Positions 19,247 to 25,128 of a DNA stretch of 51,988 nt are shown here, piece after piece. The stretch comes from Prevotella sp. (lineage in GTDB: Bacteria; Bacteroidota; Bacteroidia; Bacteroidales; Bacteroidaceae). The notes under the pieces were generated by a model. The model was not told the origin of the DNA. It saw only the letters and a list, made by a program, of their open reading frames with translations, and searched no databases. Both the position numbers and the translations under genes were made by a program. Position 1 is the stretch's first letter, and each line of letters begins with the position of its first letter. The stretch is taken from the NCBI GenBank assembly GCA_017445845.1, contig JAFSRY010000031.1, positions 1 to 51,988 on the forward strand, given 5' to 3'.

Positions 19247-20152
19247 ATGGAGAAAATTCGTATTCATTCGTTTCAGGCGTGGCTGTTGGCATCGCGTCCG
19301 AAGACGCTCATGGGAGCTGCCGTCCCGATGATGATAGCATTGTCGATGGCGTATGTCGACAGTGTGGGTCACGTTGACATGTCTTTTTCTCATTGGGTAC
19401 TGCCGGCGTTGCTCTGCGTCGCCTTTGCCATGCTGATGCAGATTGATGCCAATTTCATCAACGACTATTTTGACTTTGTCCGGGGTAACGATGATGAAAC
19501 CCGTCTTGGGCCTCGAAGGGCTTGTGCAGAAGGGTGGGTGACCCCTCGTGCCATGAAGATTGCCATCGGCATCGTCACTATGCTTGCCTGCGCCGTCGGC
19601 CTGCCGCTCATTTATTTCGGAGGGTGGCGCATGGTGCTCGTCGGCTTAGCCTGCGTGGTGTTCTGTTTTCTCTATACGACGACTCTTTCCTATTGGGGAC
19701 TCGGCGATGTGCTCGTACTCGTCTTCTTCGGCATCGTGCCCGTTTGCGTTACTTATTATATATTAATGCGCACGCTCGCGTGCGAGGTGTTTGTTGCCTC
19801 ATTGGCTTGCGGACTGGTCATCGACACGCTGCTCATCATCAATAACTACCGTGACATCGACAACGACCGGCGGGCTGGTAAAAATACCCTCATCGTGAGG
19901 GTGGGTGCACAGGGAGGCCGTTGGCTCTATCTGGCTGCAGGCTTCCTCGCAGTGTTGCTGGCAGCGGTCTTCATTGATGTCCGGTTGGTGTTGTTCTGCC
20001 TTCCTTACCTTTGCCTGCATGTGCTGACATGGCGCGAGATGTGTCGCATCAATAGGGGTAAAGCCCTGAACCTCATCCTTGCCAAGACTTCGCGGAATAT
20101 GTTTGTCTTTGGGTTGGCCTTTTCTTTAGGCATTTTGCTGATTGGCCTATGA
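19247..20152 (+). CDS. menA: 1,4-dihydroxy-2-naphthoate polyprenyltransferase MenA
   Basis: A 301-residue inner-membrane prenyltransferase that joins DHNA and a polyprenyl diphosphate to make demethylmenaquinone. The two Asp-rich Mg-binding motifs are present: NDYFDFVRGNDD (near residue 75) and NNYRDIDNDRRAGK (near residue 200). About eight to nine hydrophobic helices fit the family. The start MEKIRIHSFQAW at 19247 is chosen over TTG 19208, which lies upstream of the promoter. Its stop overlaps the next gene (ATGA). Confidence 0.93.
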   Translation: MEKIRIHSFQAWLLASRPKTLMGAAVPMMIALSMAYVDSVGHVDMSFSHWVLPALLCVAFAMLMQIDANFINDYFDFVRGNDDETRLGPRRACAEGWVTPRAMKIAIGIVTMLACAVGLPLIYFGGWRMVLVGLACVVFCFLYTTTLSYWGLGDVLVLVFFGIVPVCVTYYILMRTLACEVFVASLACGLVIDTLLIINNYRDIDNDRRAGKNTLIVRVGAQGGRWLYLAAGFLAVLLAAVFIDVRLVLFCLPYLCLHVLTWREMCRINRGKALNLILAKTSRNMFVFGLAFSLGILLIGL

Positions 20153-21326
20153 GAACAGCTATCGTCGGCGGTGGTGCCGCAGGTTTCTTTCTGGCTGTCA
20201 ACCTGAAGGAGATGTGTCCGCTGATGGAGGTCTGTATCTTCGAAAAATCACAGAAGGTATTGGCAAAGGTCGAAGTGTCGGGTGGTGGACGGTGTAACTG
20301 CACCAATTCCTTTGCCGCTGTCACCGACCTCCAGCAGGTCTATCCGCGCGGCCATCGGTTGCTGAAAAGACTTTTCAACGGCTTCGGTCCCAGGGATGCC
20401 TACGAGTGGTTCGAACGTCATGGGGTGCCTTTGGTGACGCAGTTGGACAATTGTGTCTTTCCAAAGGCACAGGATGCTCATGCCATTATCGACTGCTTCC
20501 TGACGATGGCACGAAGACAAGAGGTGACAATAAAGCCCCATGCAAATGTGTCTTCACTTGAAGCACTGAAAGACTTCGATTTTGTTTGTGTCACCACGGG
20601 CGGACAGCCCCGATTGGCAGGGCTTCAATGGCTGGCTGACTTGGGACACGAAATCATTCCGCCTGTTCCTTCACTTTTCACGTGAAAGACAAGGCTTTAC
20701 AAAACCTCATGGGAACAGTCGTGGAAAATGCTACGGCGTTTATTCCCGCAACTCACTATCGGGCCTCGGGGCCCTTGCTCATCACCCATTGGGGAATGAG
20801 TGGACCTGCCATACTGAAACTCTCCAGTCATGCCGCCCGCCATCTGTCAGACTGTCGCTATGAGTCGCCGCTGGCAGTGAATTGGCTGTCGATGCGTGAT
20901 GCCGATGTCGTTGAGGCTTTGCAGGCTATTGCCATCAGCAATCCTCAAAAGAAAGTGACGACGATACGACCTTTCGATTTGCCCTCGCGACTGTGGGATT
21001 ATCTTTTGGAGAAGACCCTTGGCAATCACGCCTCCTGTCGGTGGAGTGAACTGGGTAAGAAAGAATTGAACCGCCTGGCCAATGCCCTTTGTAACGATAG
21101 CTATGCTATCAGTGGGCGTGCCGTCTTTAAGGATGAATTCGTCACTTGCGGCGGTGTCTCGTTGCAGTCGGTCAATCCTTCGACCTTGGAGAGCCGCCAT
21201 GTCCACAACCTGTTTTTCGCAGGCGAAATTCTTGACATCGACGGCATTACCGGCGGCTTCAACTTCCAAGCTGCCTGGACCACCGCCTATACCGTGGCCA
21301 AGAGTATATGTGAGAAGAGAGAATAG
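20149..21326 (+). pseudogene. HI0933/BaiN-family flavoprotein, interrupted by a frameshift
   Basis: The two open frames 20149-20685 and 20682-21326 together make one FAD-dependent oxidoreductase of about 390 residues. Part one has the dinucleotide-binding start AIVGGGAAGFFLAV and VSGGGRCNCTN, and stops after PPVPSLFT. Part two goes on with KDKALQNLMG, ASGPLLITHWGMSGPAIL and ends with CGGVSLQSVN and FFAGEILDIDGITGGFN. Homologs read SLFTF-x-V-KD without break. The break sits at the palindrome TTTCACGTGAAA; loss of one copy of a 7-base tandem TTTCACG would explain it. It may be a sequencing error, a true mutation or a reversible switch. It starts within the menA stop. Confidence 0.85.
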
Positions 21327-21341
21327 GAATGCGACTGGCTT

Positions 21342-22466
21342 TTACTTCCCCCCTTTCCTCCTGTTACAGTCGCGACAGAGCATCTGGCAGTTTTCTATAA
21401 CCGTTCTTCCACCTTCGCGCCAAGGGGTAATGTGGTCTCCCTCCATAAATTCCAAGTCGAACTCTTTACCGCAAAGGGCACATCGATGACCTTGTGTTTC
21501 CCAAACGACCAGTTTGATGTCTTCGGGGAAAGCCCGAAGGTCGAGGTAGTGCTCGTCGCCCGTCAGTACATATGGGATGATGCCAGTCTGCCGTTGGATG
21601 TCTGAGTCGCGCATCAGGGTGGAAATCTGTTGACCCAAAGCGGCTGTGTCGAGGGTTTTCTGCCCGAACCAATCGTAGAGTTCAGCCCAGTCGAGTCCCT
21701 TCATAATGCGTTTAAACTTCTTCATGTCGAAGTTTGTAATGGCCCAGTTGAGTACCGTCTGAAAGTATGACCAAAGGTTGTTGGAGTTTGGGTCATGCTG
21801 GTGTTGCGACATGTATCCGACGACCGATTGACGGCGTCCTTGACGAGTCTCGTGGTCGGCCATCCATTCAAGGGCTTTCTTCAGAAAGTCCTGGCGGATC
21901 GGGGTACCGTTGACGAGGTCTTTCCCCAGTCGGTAGGCACCACAATTCGATTTTGAGAAATGGCGTTTGGCATCGCTGACGAAAGGACCAGCATAGATGG
22001 CATTGTTGATTTCCTGTTCGTTCAGCGGCTTGCCGGCGATATTGATAGTCTTAAACCATTTGAGTTTTTCCGAGGTTTCGCCTTCACAGACATAGACAGT
22101 CAGTCTGTAGTCGAGTATTCGCTTCTGGATGTCTTCCGGTTGATTGAAGAAAGCTTTATAATCGTAGGAGAATTTGCCTGCCACATATTCGCAGAGTGAG
22201 AGGGTGCGCTGTTGTCCGTCCATCACTTCATAGGGACATTCCGCATCATCACTCCTACGAACCCAATACATCACGTTCAATGGATAGCCGTTCAGCACCG
22301 TTGTGATGACCGCCTGCTGTTCCTTCTCGTTATAGATAAATTCGCGTTGATAGGGTGGGCGAATGTCTAACAAACCGTTATAGCCACGGACGCCCAGTTC
22401 GTCGTTGTTCACATAGCCCTTTGTAATCTCACCAACGGTCACTTCTATTTGCTTAATCGTCATCAT
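21342..22466 (-). CDS. DUF262 and HNH nuclease domain protein (GmrSD-like)
   Basis: A 374-residue protein. The N-terminal DUF262 (ParB/Srx-like NTPase) part has PPYQREFIYNEKEQQAVITTVLNGYP and the YEVMDGQQRTLSL motif near residue 80. The C-terminal HNH domain has C329-x2-C332, DH at 344-345, N359 and C364-x2-C367, thus a complete zinc-bound beta-beta-alpha-metal nuclease. Related fusions act as restriction enzymes, some against modified DNA (GmrS/GmrD). Here it directly follows an EcoRI-type adenine methylase gene (24-base gap, same strand), which suggests a restriction-modification pair. The active site is intact. Confidence 0.85.
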   Translation of the reverse strand: MMTIKQIEVTVGEITKGYVNNDELGVRGYNGLLDIRPPYQREFIYNEKEQQAVITTVLNGYPLNVMYWVRRSDDAECPYEVMDGQQRTLSLCEYVAGKFSYDYKAFFNQPEDIQKRILDYRLTVYVCEGETSEKLKWFKTINIAGKPLNEQEINNAIYAGPFVSDAKRHFSKSNCGAYRLGKDLVNGTPIRQDFLKKALEWMADHETRQGRRQSVVGYMSQHQHDPNSNNLWSYFQTVLNWAITNFDMKKFKRIMKGLDWAELYDWFGQKTLDTAALGQQISTLMRDSDIQRQTGIIPYVLTGDEHYLDLRAFPEDIKLVVWETQGHRCALCGKEFDLEFMEGDHITPWREGGRTVIENCQMLCRDCNRRKGGK

Positions 22467-22490: not shown

Positions 22491-23564
22491 TTATACTTGA
22501 GGGTGCTTGTTGCGGATGAGAATTCTGCTATATTGTCTTTTACCTTTTACGACTCCACAACCACCTCTGTCTTCTGGATGAATAACATAACCAACCTTTT
22601 CTAATACATCTTGGGGCGTTGAGGCTCGAGTGTTACCGCTTGCCTGCCAAATAATCTCAAATTGTTCAGGGTTATACTTGTCAAGGAATGTTATGGGAAC
22701 TCCAATAAGGCCTTCATAATCATAAGGTATATCAGATGTTTTATTGACGTTTATAGCATTGTAATTGTCGAACTTTGGGTATTCTTCTGGTGAATATTTG
22801 CAAACCAAATCAATAAACTCATTTCTTTTTGGAATATCTAAATTTGTAAACCAATGTACACCAGATACTCTTATCATTCCTTCTTTGTGGTCATTGGCTG
22901 TTGCTGTATCCTCGTATGGAGAAACGAAATGGGCAGCTCCTCCCTTAAAACCATACCCTAACCATATTTTGTTATTAATAACATGTGGAAATATTTCTTT
23001 ATATATAATTGCCCCTTGATTACCTACTATTAGGAATTTTTTATTAAACTCCATCAGTTGCCCGATATATTCGCGGAACAAGGAGAAGGGTGGGTTCGTG
23101 ACAACGATGTCGGCCTGTTTGAGTAGTTCGATACACTCTGAGTCACGGAAGTCGCCTGTCTTGAGAGTAGAAAGAACGTTGCGGTCGTTTTGCAGAAGGT
23201 AGCGGACATCGGAAAGGTCGACGGCTCCGTCGCCATTCAAGTCTTTCACCTCCGTTATTTCCACTTTATAGGCAATCTTCTTGGGGTCACTCTGATAGTC
23301 ATCGAATTGCAGCAGCAGTTCGTTGCCTTGAACGGGTGAGCCGTTATAGCAGGTGCAGATGAGTTTCTTCAGTCCCAACTGATTGAACCTCAGCGCAAAA
23401 TACTTGAAGAAATTACTTTCGTAAGGGTCGTCGCAGTTGCACAATACAACCTTCCCACGGAAATGAGGCCAGTAGTGCTGCAACTCCCTTTCAATGTCAG
23501 AAAGCTGAGTATAGAACTCATCCTTCTTCGCTGTCTTGGCAGCATTTAGGTTTTTGTTTGCCAT
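22491..23564 (-). CDS. EcoRI-type adenine-specific DNA methyltransferase
   Basis: A 357-residue methylase. The start AKTAKKDEFYTQLSDIERELQ, VVLCNCDDPYESNFFKYF and the catalytic TNPPFSLFREY (N157-PPF160) fit the EcoRI methylase family, which methylates adenine N6. The segment DLNGDGAVDLSDV (about residues 110-122) looks like a calcium-binding loop and recurs in this family as an insertion. The rest resembles intact members through GVPITFLDKYNPEQFEI. It is the first gene of an operon with the DUF262-HNH gene, behind an unusually long leader. Confidence 0.9.
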   Translation of the reverse strand: MANKNLNAAKTAKKDEFYTQLSDIERELQHYWPHFRGKVVLCNCDDPYESNFFKYFALRFNQLGLKKLICTCYNGSPVQGNELLLQFDDYQSDPKKIAYKVEITEVKDLNGDGAVDLSDVRYLLQNDRNVLSTLKTGDFRDSECIELLKQADIVVTNPPFSLFREYIGQLMEFNKKFLIVGNQGAIIYKEIFPHVINNKIWLGYGFKGGAAHFVSPYEDTATANDHKEGMIRVSGVHWFTNLDIPKRNEFIDLVCKYSPEEYPKFDNYNAINVNKTSDIPYDYEGLIGVPITFLDKYNPEQFEIIWQASGNTRASTPQDVLEKVGYVIHPEDRGGCGVVKGKRQYSRILIRNKHPQV

Positions 23565-23854
23565 ACGCTAATGCATGATTGTGCGTATTGCTTATCTTCG
23601 GAGGTGTAGGCAGGCAGGGCACAAAAAGAACATGGACGATTCTCATCCATGTCCTAAAGGCTCTACCAAAGCCTACAAAACCAGATAAGTCACGCCCATG
23701 CATAACGCACAGACGTTTGCGACTTATTCTTCGGCTTTGTTTTTTTGAACTTGGTAGATTCTTAGGACATTCCGAATAACAGCAAACGCTTGTTAATTTT
23801 TTCCACGATGTTGCGTCCGCTCCTCCGCTGAGGTCAGTAGCGAACGCTTGTGTG
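23565..23854 (-). ncRNA. Structured 5' leader of the methylase operon (candidate new RNA element)
   Basis: From the promoter at 23855 to the methylase ATG are about 285 transcribed bases without a gene. Domain A: 23813-23821 pairs with 23839-23847. Domain B: CGTTTGC (23714-23720) with GCAAACG (23782-23788), inside it TTATTC (23724-23729) with GAATAA (23774-23779). Domain C: TGTGCGT (23580-23586) with ACGCACA (23705-23711), then CTTATCT (23591-23597) with AGATAAG (23683-23689), TGTAGGC (23605-23611) with GCCTACA (23671-23677), and ACATGGA (23630-23636) with TCCATGT (23646-23652). On the minus strand the last hairpin is followed by TTTTT. Domains B and C share design. Found by eye only. Confidence 0.55.
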
Positions 23855-23862
23855 CAAAATTA
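23855..23862 (-). promoter_or_regulatory. TAnnTTTG promoter of the methylase/DUF262-HNH operon
   Basis: Minus-strand TAATTTTG. The distance to the methylase ATG (290 bases) is far more than the 15-50 bases seen at other genes of the window. Confidence 0.6.
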
Positions 23863-23864
23863 CA

Positions 23865-24015
23865 GAATAATTCTGAGCTGACAAAACATTTGCTGCAAAA
23901 AGTGTATGGAGGAACGCAAAAAGGTTTCGGCCTTGACGTTAATTCCTGTTATAGTCAAGCCCGTTAGTAAGTAAACTTCATTAGTATGCTGCCTATTGAC
24001 AGTCTAATAAAAAAA
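23865..24015. other. Spacer between the methylase promoter and queH
   Basis: No gene is recognised. The AT-rich end (AAAAAAATTAG near 24010) lies directly downstream of the QueH-DUF4112 stop on the minus strand. Confidence 0.4.
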
Positions 24016-25128
24016 TTAGCTGAACAAGGCGGTGCCGAGCTTGACTGCCAACCACACGAGAAGCCACATCATGAGGATGATGGTGAGCAGGAGAAGGATG
24101 CAGACGGCGGCTGTCTGCCGTGCCTTGCGGTTGACTTCACGGATGACCACCTTGTCGCCGTTGATGAAGCCGTCGATGAGTTTCATGTTCTGGACGTTAG
24201 AACGATGGAAGAAGTCGATGACATCTCCCACGAAAAAGGGTAGAAGTCCGAGGAGGATGTCGCGGAGGGCATTGTTGAGGATGGCCATCGTCAGTGCCCA
24301 CGAGCGGATCTTGAAGGCCGCGAAGTAAAGATAGATGAGGGCAAAGAGTCCTCCGATGGCATCGCCGATGCCGAAAGGCAGCAGTCCGATGATGCCGTCA
24401 AGGTAGAAGCGGTCCATCAGCCGGGTGAGGCGACGCATGAACGATATGGACCACGCCGTCTGTCCTTTCCTCGGGAGGGACTGGGTAGAGGGGCTTGGCG
24501 TTCCTCTTAAACTATACTCACACCCGCAGTACTGCTGGTTATAGAAGTTGTATTCGCGTAGCAGTTGGTTGCGGCGCTCGTAGAGACCGCCCTTGCGCCA
24601 GTTTTGTGCCCAGAAGTGAGTACCGGGGACTTGCGATTCCGCATATTGGCCCGCTGCTGTAATCTGTTCGAGGCTTTTCCACCGGGAGGAAGCGAGTGTT
24701 GTGGTGAAGTATTCGATGCCGAGTTCTTTTGCCTTTCGTGCTGTGATGAGCAGGCGATGGCGGAAACACTGCAGGCAGCGGCTTCCCCTTTCAGGTTCGT
24801 TTTCCAGTCCTTTCACGCACGACAGCCACTCTCCGTGGTTGTAGTCGCCATCAATCCAATGAAGGCCGAGGCTCTCGGCATGTCGCTTGCTCTCGTTCTT
24901 TCGGATTTCATATTCCTCGTGCGGATAGATGTTCGGATTATAGTAGAAGATGGTGGGTCGGATGCCGTTTGCCAACAGCCACTCAACGATGGCAGACGAA
25001 CAAGGAGCACAGCAAGCATGAAGGAGAAGCCCGGACGCAGAGCCGTCCCCCTTTCCCTCCCCAAGGGAAGCGGACAATGTCTGTTGGGCAATTAGCCCTT
25101 CGGGAATTTGTATGGCTGGCTGTTTCAT
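24016..25128 (-). CDS. queH: Epoxyqueuosine reductase QueH fused to DUF4112
   Basis: A 370-residue fusion. Residues 34-205 are QueH, which reduces epoxyqueuosine to queuosine in tRNA: HACCAPC (C39, C40, C43), CLQC (C118, C121) and CGC (C201, C203). Residues 231-340 are DUF4112, a membrane domain (LMDRFYLDGIIGLLPFGIGDAIGG and LLGLLPFFVGDVIDFF), plus a last helix near 347-368. QueH normally ends right after CGCEYSL; here RGTPSPSTQSLPRKGQ follows, coded by a C/G-rich dispersed repeat. The N-terminal 33 residues are also extra and include SLGEGKGDGS from another copy. QueA at 43039 makes the QueH substrate. Confidence 0.88.
   Translation of the reverse strand: MKQPAIQIPEGLIAQQTLSASLGEGKGDGSASGLLLHACCAPCSSAIVEWLLANGIRPTIFYYNPNIYPHEEYEIRKNESKRHAESLGLHWIDGDYNHGEWLSCVKGLENEPERGSRCLQCFRHRLLITARKAKELGIEYFTTTLASSRWKSLEQITAAGQYAESQVPGTHFWAQNWRKGGLYERRNQLLREYNFYNQQYCGCEYSLRGTPSPSTQSLPRKGQTAWSISFMRRLTRLMDRFYLDGIIGLLPFGIGDAIGGLFALIYLYFAAFKIRSWALTMAILNNALRDILLGLLPFFVGDVIDFFHRSNVQNMKLIDGFINGDKVVIREVNRKARQTAAVCILLLLTIILMMWLLVWLAVKLGTALFS
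24464..24496. repeat. C/G-rich dispersed repeat inside the queH-DUF4112 frame
   Basis: CCTCGGGAGGGACTGGGTAGAGG-like segment, matching in part the copy at 25138 (GGGAAGGGACTGG). It codes for the linker between QueH and DUF4112. Confidence 0.6.
25045..25070. repeat. C/G-rich dispersed repeat near the queH start
   Basis: CCCTTTCCCTCCCCAAGGG segment, part of the same family. It codes for SLGEGKGDG, an N-terminal insertion before the QueH cysteine motif. Confidence 0.6.

Follow-up and report, generated by a model that had tools for sequence, protein, structure and literature searches.

A multicopy Bacteroidota leader RNA with long-range helices and a terminator-like hairpin, a candidate attenuator of restriction-modification genes in Prevotella

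Intrinsic-terminator attenuators and riboswitch expression platforms make up a general class of leader. The RNA that we describe here resembles them in lying 5' of a gene, in having a hairpin followed by a U run, and in having a strand that can alternatively pair with the 5' arm of the terminator, but it differs in having three long-range helices, including a putative loop-loop contact, without an Rfam match, and in recurring up to 27 times per genome before unrelated genes. The JUMPstart and epsC elements are linked to RfaH and processive antitermination and act on polysaccharide operons. Both are named in a table of PMC2864571. Our RNA is, like them, a leader element common to several operons; unlike them, it has a terminator-like hairpin inside the element, and several of its targets are single large genes. 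A corrinoid riboswitch with a kissing loop (PMC10653944) likewise appears to couple that loop to a terminator and antiterminator in a 5' leader, whereas our leader matches no Rfam riboswitch class and stands before other genes. FopS of Bacteroides, as presented in sections of PMC11697453, is also a multicopy Bacteroidota RNA with an intrinsic-terminator end (putative in our case), but FopS is single-stranded over a 5' stretch and works in trans, whereas here a highly structured core serves as a leader.

For restriction-modification (R-M) systems, sections of a 2025 review (PMC12707154) describe control by promoter methylation, methyltransferase-repressor fusions, antisense RNA and C proteins, for the most part one system at a time. 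The strings "attenuat" and "leader" have no occurrence in its main text, and the sections covered do not describe an element shared across unrelated R-M systems. Our leader would resemble these controls in restraining or timing R-M expression. A literature search found no description of the RNA, including in the main-text sections covered of PMC8040213, PMC11697453, PMC9723704, PMC7366714, PMC11109978, PMC8632094, PMC2864571 and PMC12707154; an earlier unnamed listing is possible, most likely among the thousands of candidate RNAs in the supplements of PMC8040213 (a 2021 microbiome survey), which lie outside that search. As far as our searches go, a leader attenuator is of a known kind, while the architecture, the copy number and the attachment to several R-M types are new.

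The window that we analyzed is a 51,988-nt stretch of Prevotella sp. DNA (contig JAFSRY010000031.1). On its minus strand, the leader precedes both genes of an operon, which encode an EcoRI-type methylase and a GmrSD-type nuclease (Table 1). Promoters of the expected type combine an upstream TTTG element with a -7 box. The initial annotation had placed such a promoter, for which a passage of PMC9723704 gives the consensus TAnnTTTG, about 290 bases upstream of the methylase, and our predicted promoter agrees with this; as estimated from the promoter box, transcription would start near 23850, giving a leader of about 286 nt before the ATG at 23564. By eye, boxes resembling TAATTTTG lie upstream of the core in several homologues, and a hairpin-like stretch of variable sequence occupies the position of hairpin A, whose 9-bp stem is exactly as first annotated.

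Folding against shuffled sequence and a search of Rfam, two of the checks that the initial annotation had proposed, both set this leader apart. On the minus strand, its minimum free energy (MFE) was -109.8 kcal/mol, whereas the shuffles averaged -76.3 (sd 5.25), which gives z -6.38; the plus strand had z -3.99, and none of 200 shuffles was as good on either strand. Rfam 15 gave no match at the leader up to E = 5 and none at the gathering score in the window; the sole match in 23000-24500 was at 24094-24187 (E 1.1), and in 19 relatives all six matches up to E = 1 fell outside the RNA. The leader is real and strongly structured, and its family has no Rfam 15 match. Elsewhere in the window, one ORF (24016-25128, minus strand) is a fusion of QueH (epoxyqueuosine reductase) with a DUF4112 domain, and at 20149-21326 (plus strand) an HI0933-like FAD protein, recognized by Pfam on its first part, seemingly continues in the next frame (20149-20685 into 20682-21326), possibly owing to a frameshift or an assembly error.

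Table 1. Features of the operon, its predicted promoter and the leader RNA (window coordinates; RNA strands in 5' to 3' order)
Feature	Position	Strand	Evidence
GmrSD_N/HNH restriction endonuclease, operon gene 2	21342..22466	-	PF03235, PF01844; PADLOC REase_II E 1.4e-119
EcoRI-type adenine methyltransferase	22491..23564	-	PF13651 E 1.7e-148; PADLOC MTase_II
Upstream promoter element TTTG	23882..23885	-	Sequence; 19-nt spacer to -7 box
Predicted promoter -7 box TAATTTTG	23855..23862	-	Sequence
Hairpin A, 5' end of leader, 9-bp stem, inner CCUC/GAGG	23813..23847	-	Sequence and fold
Conserved RNA core, 172 nt	23624..23795	-	Covariance model R2, 162.3 bits; this copy is itself in the model alignment
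P1B 5' strand GCGUUUGC, partner 23714-23720	23782..23789	-	95% of cells paired, 82 sequences
Exchange strand 1 UUAUUC	23774..23779	-	Pairs GAAUAA 91% or GGAUAA 88%; column-shuffled 88%, 87%
x UGUCCUAA, proposed antiterminator strand, partner x' 23650-23657	23762..23769	-	212/629 double-change cells; 5 significantly covarying pairs
y UCUACCAA, loop strand, partner y' 23662-23669	23751..23758	-	98% paired; 6 significantly covarying pairs
z CAAAGCC, partner z' 23676-23682	23733..23739	-	Own helix mean 8.44 bp vs 5.01 swapped
Exchange strand 2 GAAUAAG	23723..23729	-	Alignment pairing counts
P1B 3' strand GCAAACG	23714..23720	-	Alignment pairing counts, 82 sequences
tip5' GUCUGUGC, partner tip3'	23707..23714	-	99% paired
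tip3' GCAUGGGC, exclusive partners tip5' or terminator 3' arm	23694..23701	-	99% / 98% paired, 82 sequences; column-shuffled 95% / 93%
Exchange strand 3 CUUAUC	23684..23689	-	Alignment pairing counts
z' GGUUUUG	23676..23682	-	Partner-swap test
hC closing strand GGC, with GCC 23659-23661; puts y' in loop	23671..23673	-	1 significantly covarying pair, C-G/U-A
y' UUGGUAGA	23662..23669	-	Covariation
x' UUAGGACA, overlaps terminator-like hairpin 5' arm	23650..23657	-	Covariation; hairpin overlap
Terminator-like hairpin 5' arm AGGACAUGGA	23646..23655	-	Fold energies; local hairpin survey
Terminator-like hairpin 3' arm UCCAUGUUCU	23627..23636	-	Fold energies; local hairpin survey
U run 3' of hairpin	23623..23627	-	At least 3 U in 5 nt after arm, 80/82 sequences
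U run-to-start codon segment; in many homologues can pair with y'-x' region	23565..23622	-	Own mean 9.11 bp vs 7.32 swapped; at least 8 bp in 52/82

The leader had been annotated as two adjacent domains, B and C, of nested local stems. All of the stem sequences named there are present, but the plan was incomplete: judged from the sequences, the main feature of the leader is three long-range helices, x, y and z, that link domain B to domain C. For three of the four annotated domain C stems, the 3' strand (GCCTACA, AGATAAG or ACGCACA on the minus strand) falls beyond the terminator-like hairpin and is not part of the 172-nt core; 20 near relatives preserve these strands well, divergent ones less well. 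The sequence CTTAT(T)CTTCGG, noted in both domains, is real and belongs to four mutually complementary strands able to exchange partners.

We assessed covariation on a MAFFT L-INS-i alignment of 86 sequences (87 minus L157), using a home-made script that follows the design of R-scape: a G-test with APC was compared with 20 null alignments in which inferred substitutions were replayed on the tree, and a tail was fitted. Twelve pairs reached E < 0.05, of which y contributed six, x five and the closing of hC one; standard pairs made up 81-99% at each. This covariation supports the proposal that the leader is a functional RNA. Two outcomes that the initial annotation had named as refuting it, a lack of covariation and a folding energy no better than that of shuffled controls, were thus both looked for and did not occur. 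As y lies in the loop of a small domain B hairpin and y' in a domain C loop closed by GGY/RCC, y would form a loop-loop contact, which x and z flank. Because z sits in a length-variable region, z:z' was tested without an alignment, by comparing the longest helix per sequence between own and swapped partners in 82 sequences. Mean lengths were 7.74 against 4.05 bp for x, 8.04 against 4.22 bp for y and 8.44 against 5.01 bp for z, the highest of 200 swap means being 4.43, 4.78 and 5.40 bp, respectively. A helix of at least 6 bp was available within the same sequence in 79/82 cases for x, 82/82 for y and 80/82 for z, the z helix ranging from 3 to 11 bp.

Pairing of the core involves x, y, z, tip and P1B, and on the A5 alignment (82 distinct rows), which we used for the structure counts, pairing is maintained through G-U changes. 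For the exchange strands, the tip and the terminator arm, the paired fraction exceeds that of column shuffles by a few per cent only; as they are nearly invariant, they carry little covariation of their own. Two structures can be drawn on this alignment. Structure 1 (x, y, w, tip, hB, hC and the outer stem) has 93.5% of cells paired and 502 double-change cells, and structure 2 (P1B, P2B, the domain C stem, y and hC) has 95.1% and 337, while slid controls for both gave 28-46% paired. The two have y and hC in common and are mutually exclusive elsewhere.

Two hallmarks of an attenuator are present across the family. At least three U occur in the 5 nt past the hairpin arm in 80/82 sequences, with no more than 3 nt between the 3' arm and the U run in 73/82, and the terminator arms have conserved rival pairings: x:x' covaries, and tip3' is 98% paired with the terminator 3' arm. 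The terminator-like hairpin uses x' bases in 67/82 and, by taking this strand, excludes x:x'. The local hairpin is weak in part of the family, with 24/82 not below z = -1 and 26/82 with a dG above -5 kcal/mol. In the window, the terminator fold and the x:x' fold are nearly equal in energy (-63.0 versus -62.2 kcal/mol), and over the 82 sequences the x:x'+tip fold lies above the MFE by a median of 0.8 and a mean of 3.1 kcal/mol. The second alternative, which combines P1B with the domain C stem (tip3' with the terminator 3' arm), lies 8.2 kcal/mol above the MFE in the window and averages 10.5 kcal/mol less stable than tip+x (pseudoknot terms left aside), the absolute difference being at most 5 in only 11/82; at this cost, it either requires assistance or may be no ground state. 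In many members, the stretch past the U run can pair with the y'-hC-x' region over up to 18 bp (highest of 100 swap means, 7.70), which would constitute a third state open to read-through transcripts only.

A DNA search of 301 family genomes gave a match at E <= 0.01 in 37 genomes, 21 of them (the window's own included) below 1e-20, and 16 of these 21 strong matches lay directly before an EcoRI-type methylase. At two such loci (L011 and L024), the methylases are 47% identical to that of the window and the leader DNA is 84% and 78% identical, respectively. We built two covariance models, R1 from 20 leaders and R2 from the 172-nt core of 82 sequences. R1 found the RNA in 142/399 family genomes, including 61/207 with a completeness of 90% or more and a contamination of 5% or less. 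R2 found it in 131/344 genomes sampled from the order (86/194 genera) and in 30/296 sampled from the phylum, three of which are outside the class; in seven genomes of other phyla, reached via chance pattern hits, its best results were two weak matches (E 0.08 and 0.58). The window's own genome holds three clear copies and two weak ones, and 12 genomes picked for having hits hold 3-27 copies each at E <= 0.001. A pattern scan of named genomes yielded 85 stretches, and the hosts of the 80 analyzed (L234-L313) are mostly Prevotellaceae/Bacteroidaceae MAGs, many from ruminants. The leader DNA had a single 24-base match among phage records and no match among plasmid records. At locus L199, an rteR sRNA (RF04181; 37-119) sits some 1.4 kb away from a leader RNA copy; rteR is linked to CTnDOT-type elements, and leader copies may therefore travel on conjugative elements.

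What lies behind the RNA was assessed at 87 loci with ORF scripts that covered the sense strand downstream. An ORF follows 86 of them, and 75 starts are within 78 nt of the U run, 67 of those at 45-78 nt. An ATG ORF of at least 100 aa begins no more than 100 nt 3' of the RNA, in the same sense, at 73/86 loci, compared with 0/28 loci with enough sequence on the 5' side in the other sense and 88/435 random places. At more distant loci, a same-sense ORF was found within 150 nt in 34/48. By BLAST cluster and Pfam of representatives, 64/86 genes encode a DNA methyltransferase or a restriction/helicase protein (four of them more than 150 nt away): 26 EcoRI-type, 11 SNF2 helicases (mostly with PLD), seven N6_Mtase/HsdM, seven N6_N4_Mtase, six Eco57I/MmeI-like, four MmeI, two D12 and one C5. 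As the first 30 rows are the nearest relatives of the window's leader, the other 57 rows, chosen down the R1 matches listed with not every match taken, are a fairer sample; here, 36/57 are of R-M/helicase type, five are acyltransferases and 16 are others or none. PADLOC, run on representatives, recognized methyltransferases of types I, II and III, one of them matching part of a IIG model, and HKD+Snf2.

In genome G310, ten of the 15 copies fetched (of 17) precede R-M/defence-type genes, one of which (GmrSD) is 229 nt away; four of the loci (L339, L340, L342 and L343) were named by likeness. In the named set, 70 loci after removal of seven chance hits and three loci without room, 55 lie before EcoRI-type methylases and eight more resemble other R-M genes by eye. 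Starting from the genes, we found the RNA no further than 150 nt upstream (E <= 0.01) at 25 of the 30 top-ranking EcoRI-type methylase loci, 10 of these 25 being copies also in the model. Large SNF2 helicases recur with the leader (L114, L116, L119, L123, L130, L131 and L138), two of them (L114 and L123) with a PLD/HKD domain, and look like one-gene restriction systems.

In distant genomes, the RNA precedes not only R-M genes but also genes for membrane proteins, secreted proteins and BspA-type LRR proteins (many labels by eye), which rules out an RNA dedicated to R-M alone. Some SusC/TonB-like genes are more than 200 nt from the RNA and may not belong to it. One 2.0-Mb genome (G668; for example, L359-L364) has the leader before several BspA-type LRR proteins, and its copies vary in x, y and z but otherwise look alike. 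At six loci (L099, L107, L121, L137, L144 and L355), the gene behind the leader encodes a membrane acyltransferase (Acyl_transf_3 or MBOAT), possibly for surface modification; L144 was assigned by likeness to L137, and in L121 and L355 the gene is more than 150 nt away. Mixed targets occur with some riboswitches that sense signalling molecules. Here too, R-M types, acyltransferases, LRR proteins and others do not make up a single downstream pathway, and the genes therefore suggest no ligand.

We consider it likely that a Bacteroidota-wide, apparently undescribed cis-regulatory RNA is represented here, with the leader as one of its copies, and that it acts as a bistable transcription attenuator. 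Comparison shows the pairings and their mutual exclusion, the U run and the location ahead of genes; we infer termination itself, the direction of control and a single common signal. By this comparison, x' either pairs with x or contributes to the 5' arm of the terminator-like hairpin, and tip3' pairs either with tip5' or with the terminator 3' arm. In the model, with x, y and z intact, the leader would be in its antiterminated state and polymerase would read through into the gene; a signal common to the copies, be it a small molecule, a protein or the transcription rate, would disturb x, y and z and let the terminator form, ending transcription some tens of nucleotides before the start codon (58 nt in the window). 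The segment beyond the U run would be transcribed only on read-through, and in many members y' and x' could then be captured by it. A single shared ligand or protein appears likelier than gene-specific control, because the rest of the core is constant while x, y and z drift with compensation. The initial annotation had suggested that the last hairpin and its T run form an attenuator that times the methylase against the nuclease. The anatomy fits an attenuator, but the timing is unsupported, as the leader precedes both genes and the same RNA stands before many single-gene systems, including MmeI-like and PLD-SNF2 proteins, as well as before acyltransferases and BspA-type LRR proteins.

Several other readings of the leader were weighed against the attenuator. 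The U run might be incidental in a ligand- or protein-responsive leader acting mainly on translation, where the distance to the ATG and nearby strands such as AUACGC...GCGUAUGGC would be what counts. The fairly tight ORF distance (67/86 starts at 45-78 nt past the U run) speaks for this, as do the conservation of the 3' part of the leader in 20 near relatives and the ability of GCAAUACGC in the window to pair at 8/9 positions with GCGUAUGGC across the ATG (by hand). However, the U run is preserved in 80/82 sequences, and by eye the start-codon hairpin is imperfect or absent in some near relatives (L012, L013, L016 and L022), for which reason we dropped it as a general mechanism; on balance, we regard control at translation as unlikely. 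A leader peptide was also dropped: 77/82 cores contain some ATG ORF of at least six codons, but no start column is common to more than 27/82, and a conserved short ORF is thus absent.

A trans-acting sRNA, in which a terminated product of about 170 nt would be functional and the downstream gene read by leakage, seems quite improbable to us. The compact conserved core with its terminator-like end and the 3-27 copies in 12 hit-selected genomes would suit such an RNA, and sections of PMC11697453 document a multicopy sRNA family, FopS, in Bacteroides. Yet a same-sense gene stands behind 73/86 loci against 88/435 random places, non-homologous gene families occupy the same position, and much of the variable sequence (x, y and z) is internally paired, with no evident conserved seed. 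Copy number is again what recommends a mobile DNA element or recombination hairpin (an attC-like or spreading repeat) rather than an RNA device, together with the position of several copies near contig ends in fragmented assemblies and the presence of rteR at one copy's locus. Against it speak the orientation and the distance to a gene, whereas an attC-like element would have no fixed relation to a start codon; promoter-like boxes lie upstream of several copies (by eye), pairing is preserved via G-U, the minus-strand fold beats the plus, and the exact 18-base pattern, which is specific to the near subfamily, is absent from viral contigs. We give this reading very little credence. An ordinary long leader with stems formed by chance has a negligible probability, being refuted by conservation and covariation, along with the folding z of -6.38 and the partner-swap test.

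If the leader is an attenuator of the kind proposed, R-M systems of several types in Prevotella-type genomes would stand under one RNA element. The broadest form of this proposal, to which we assign an even chance, is an undescribed phylum-wide kissing-loop riboregulator that, in Prevotella-type bacteria, places unrelated R-M and defence systems of one cell (as with 10 of 15 copies in one genome) under one RNA-sensed signal, as a defence regulon controlled by RNA, and governs surface proteins in other Bacteroidota. R-M genes can be harmful to the host if badly expressed. The leader RNA is a multicopy fold with very strong covariation, and its ligand or protein partner can now be searched for directly. 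If the proposal is true, a cell could shift its whole restriction barrier up or down with one signal, which would bear on phage resistance, gene transfer and the genetic tractability of gut and rumen Prevotella.
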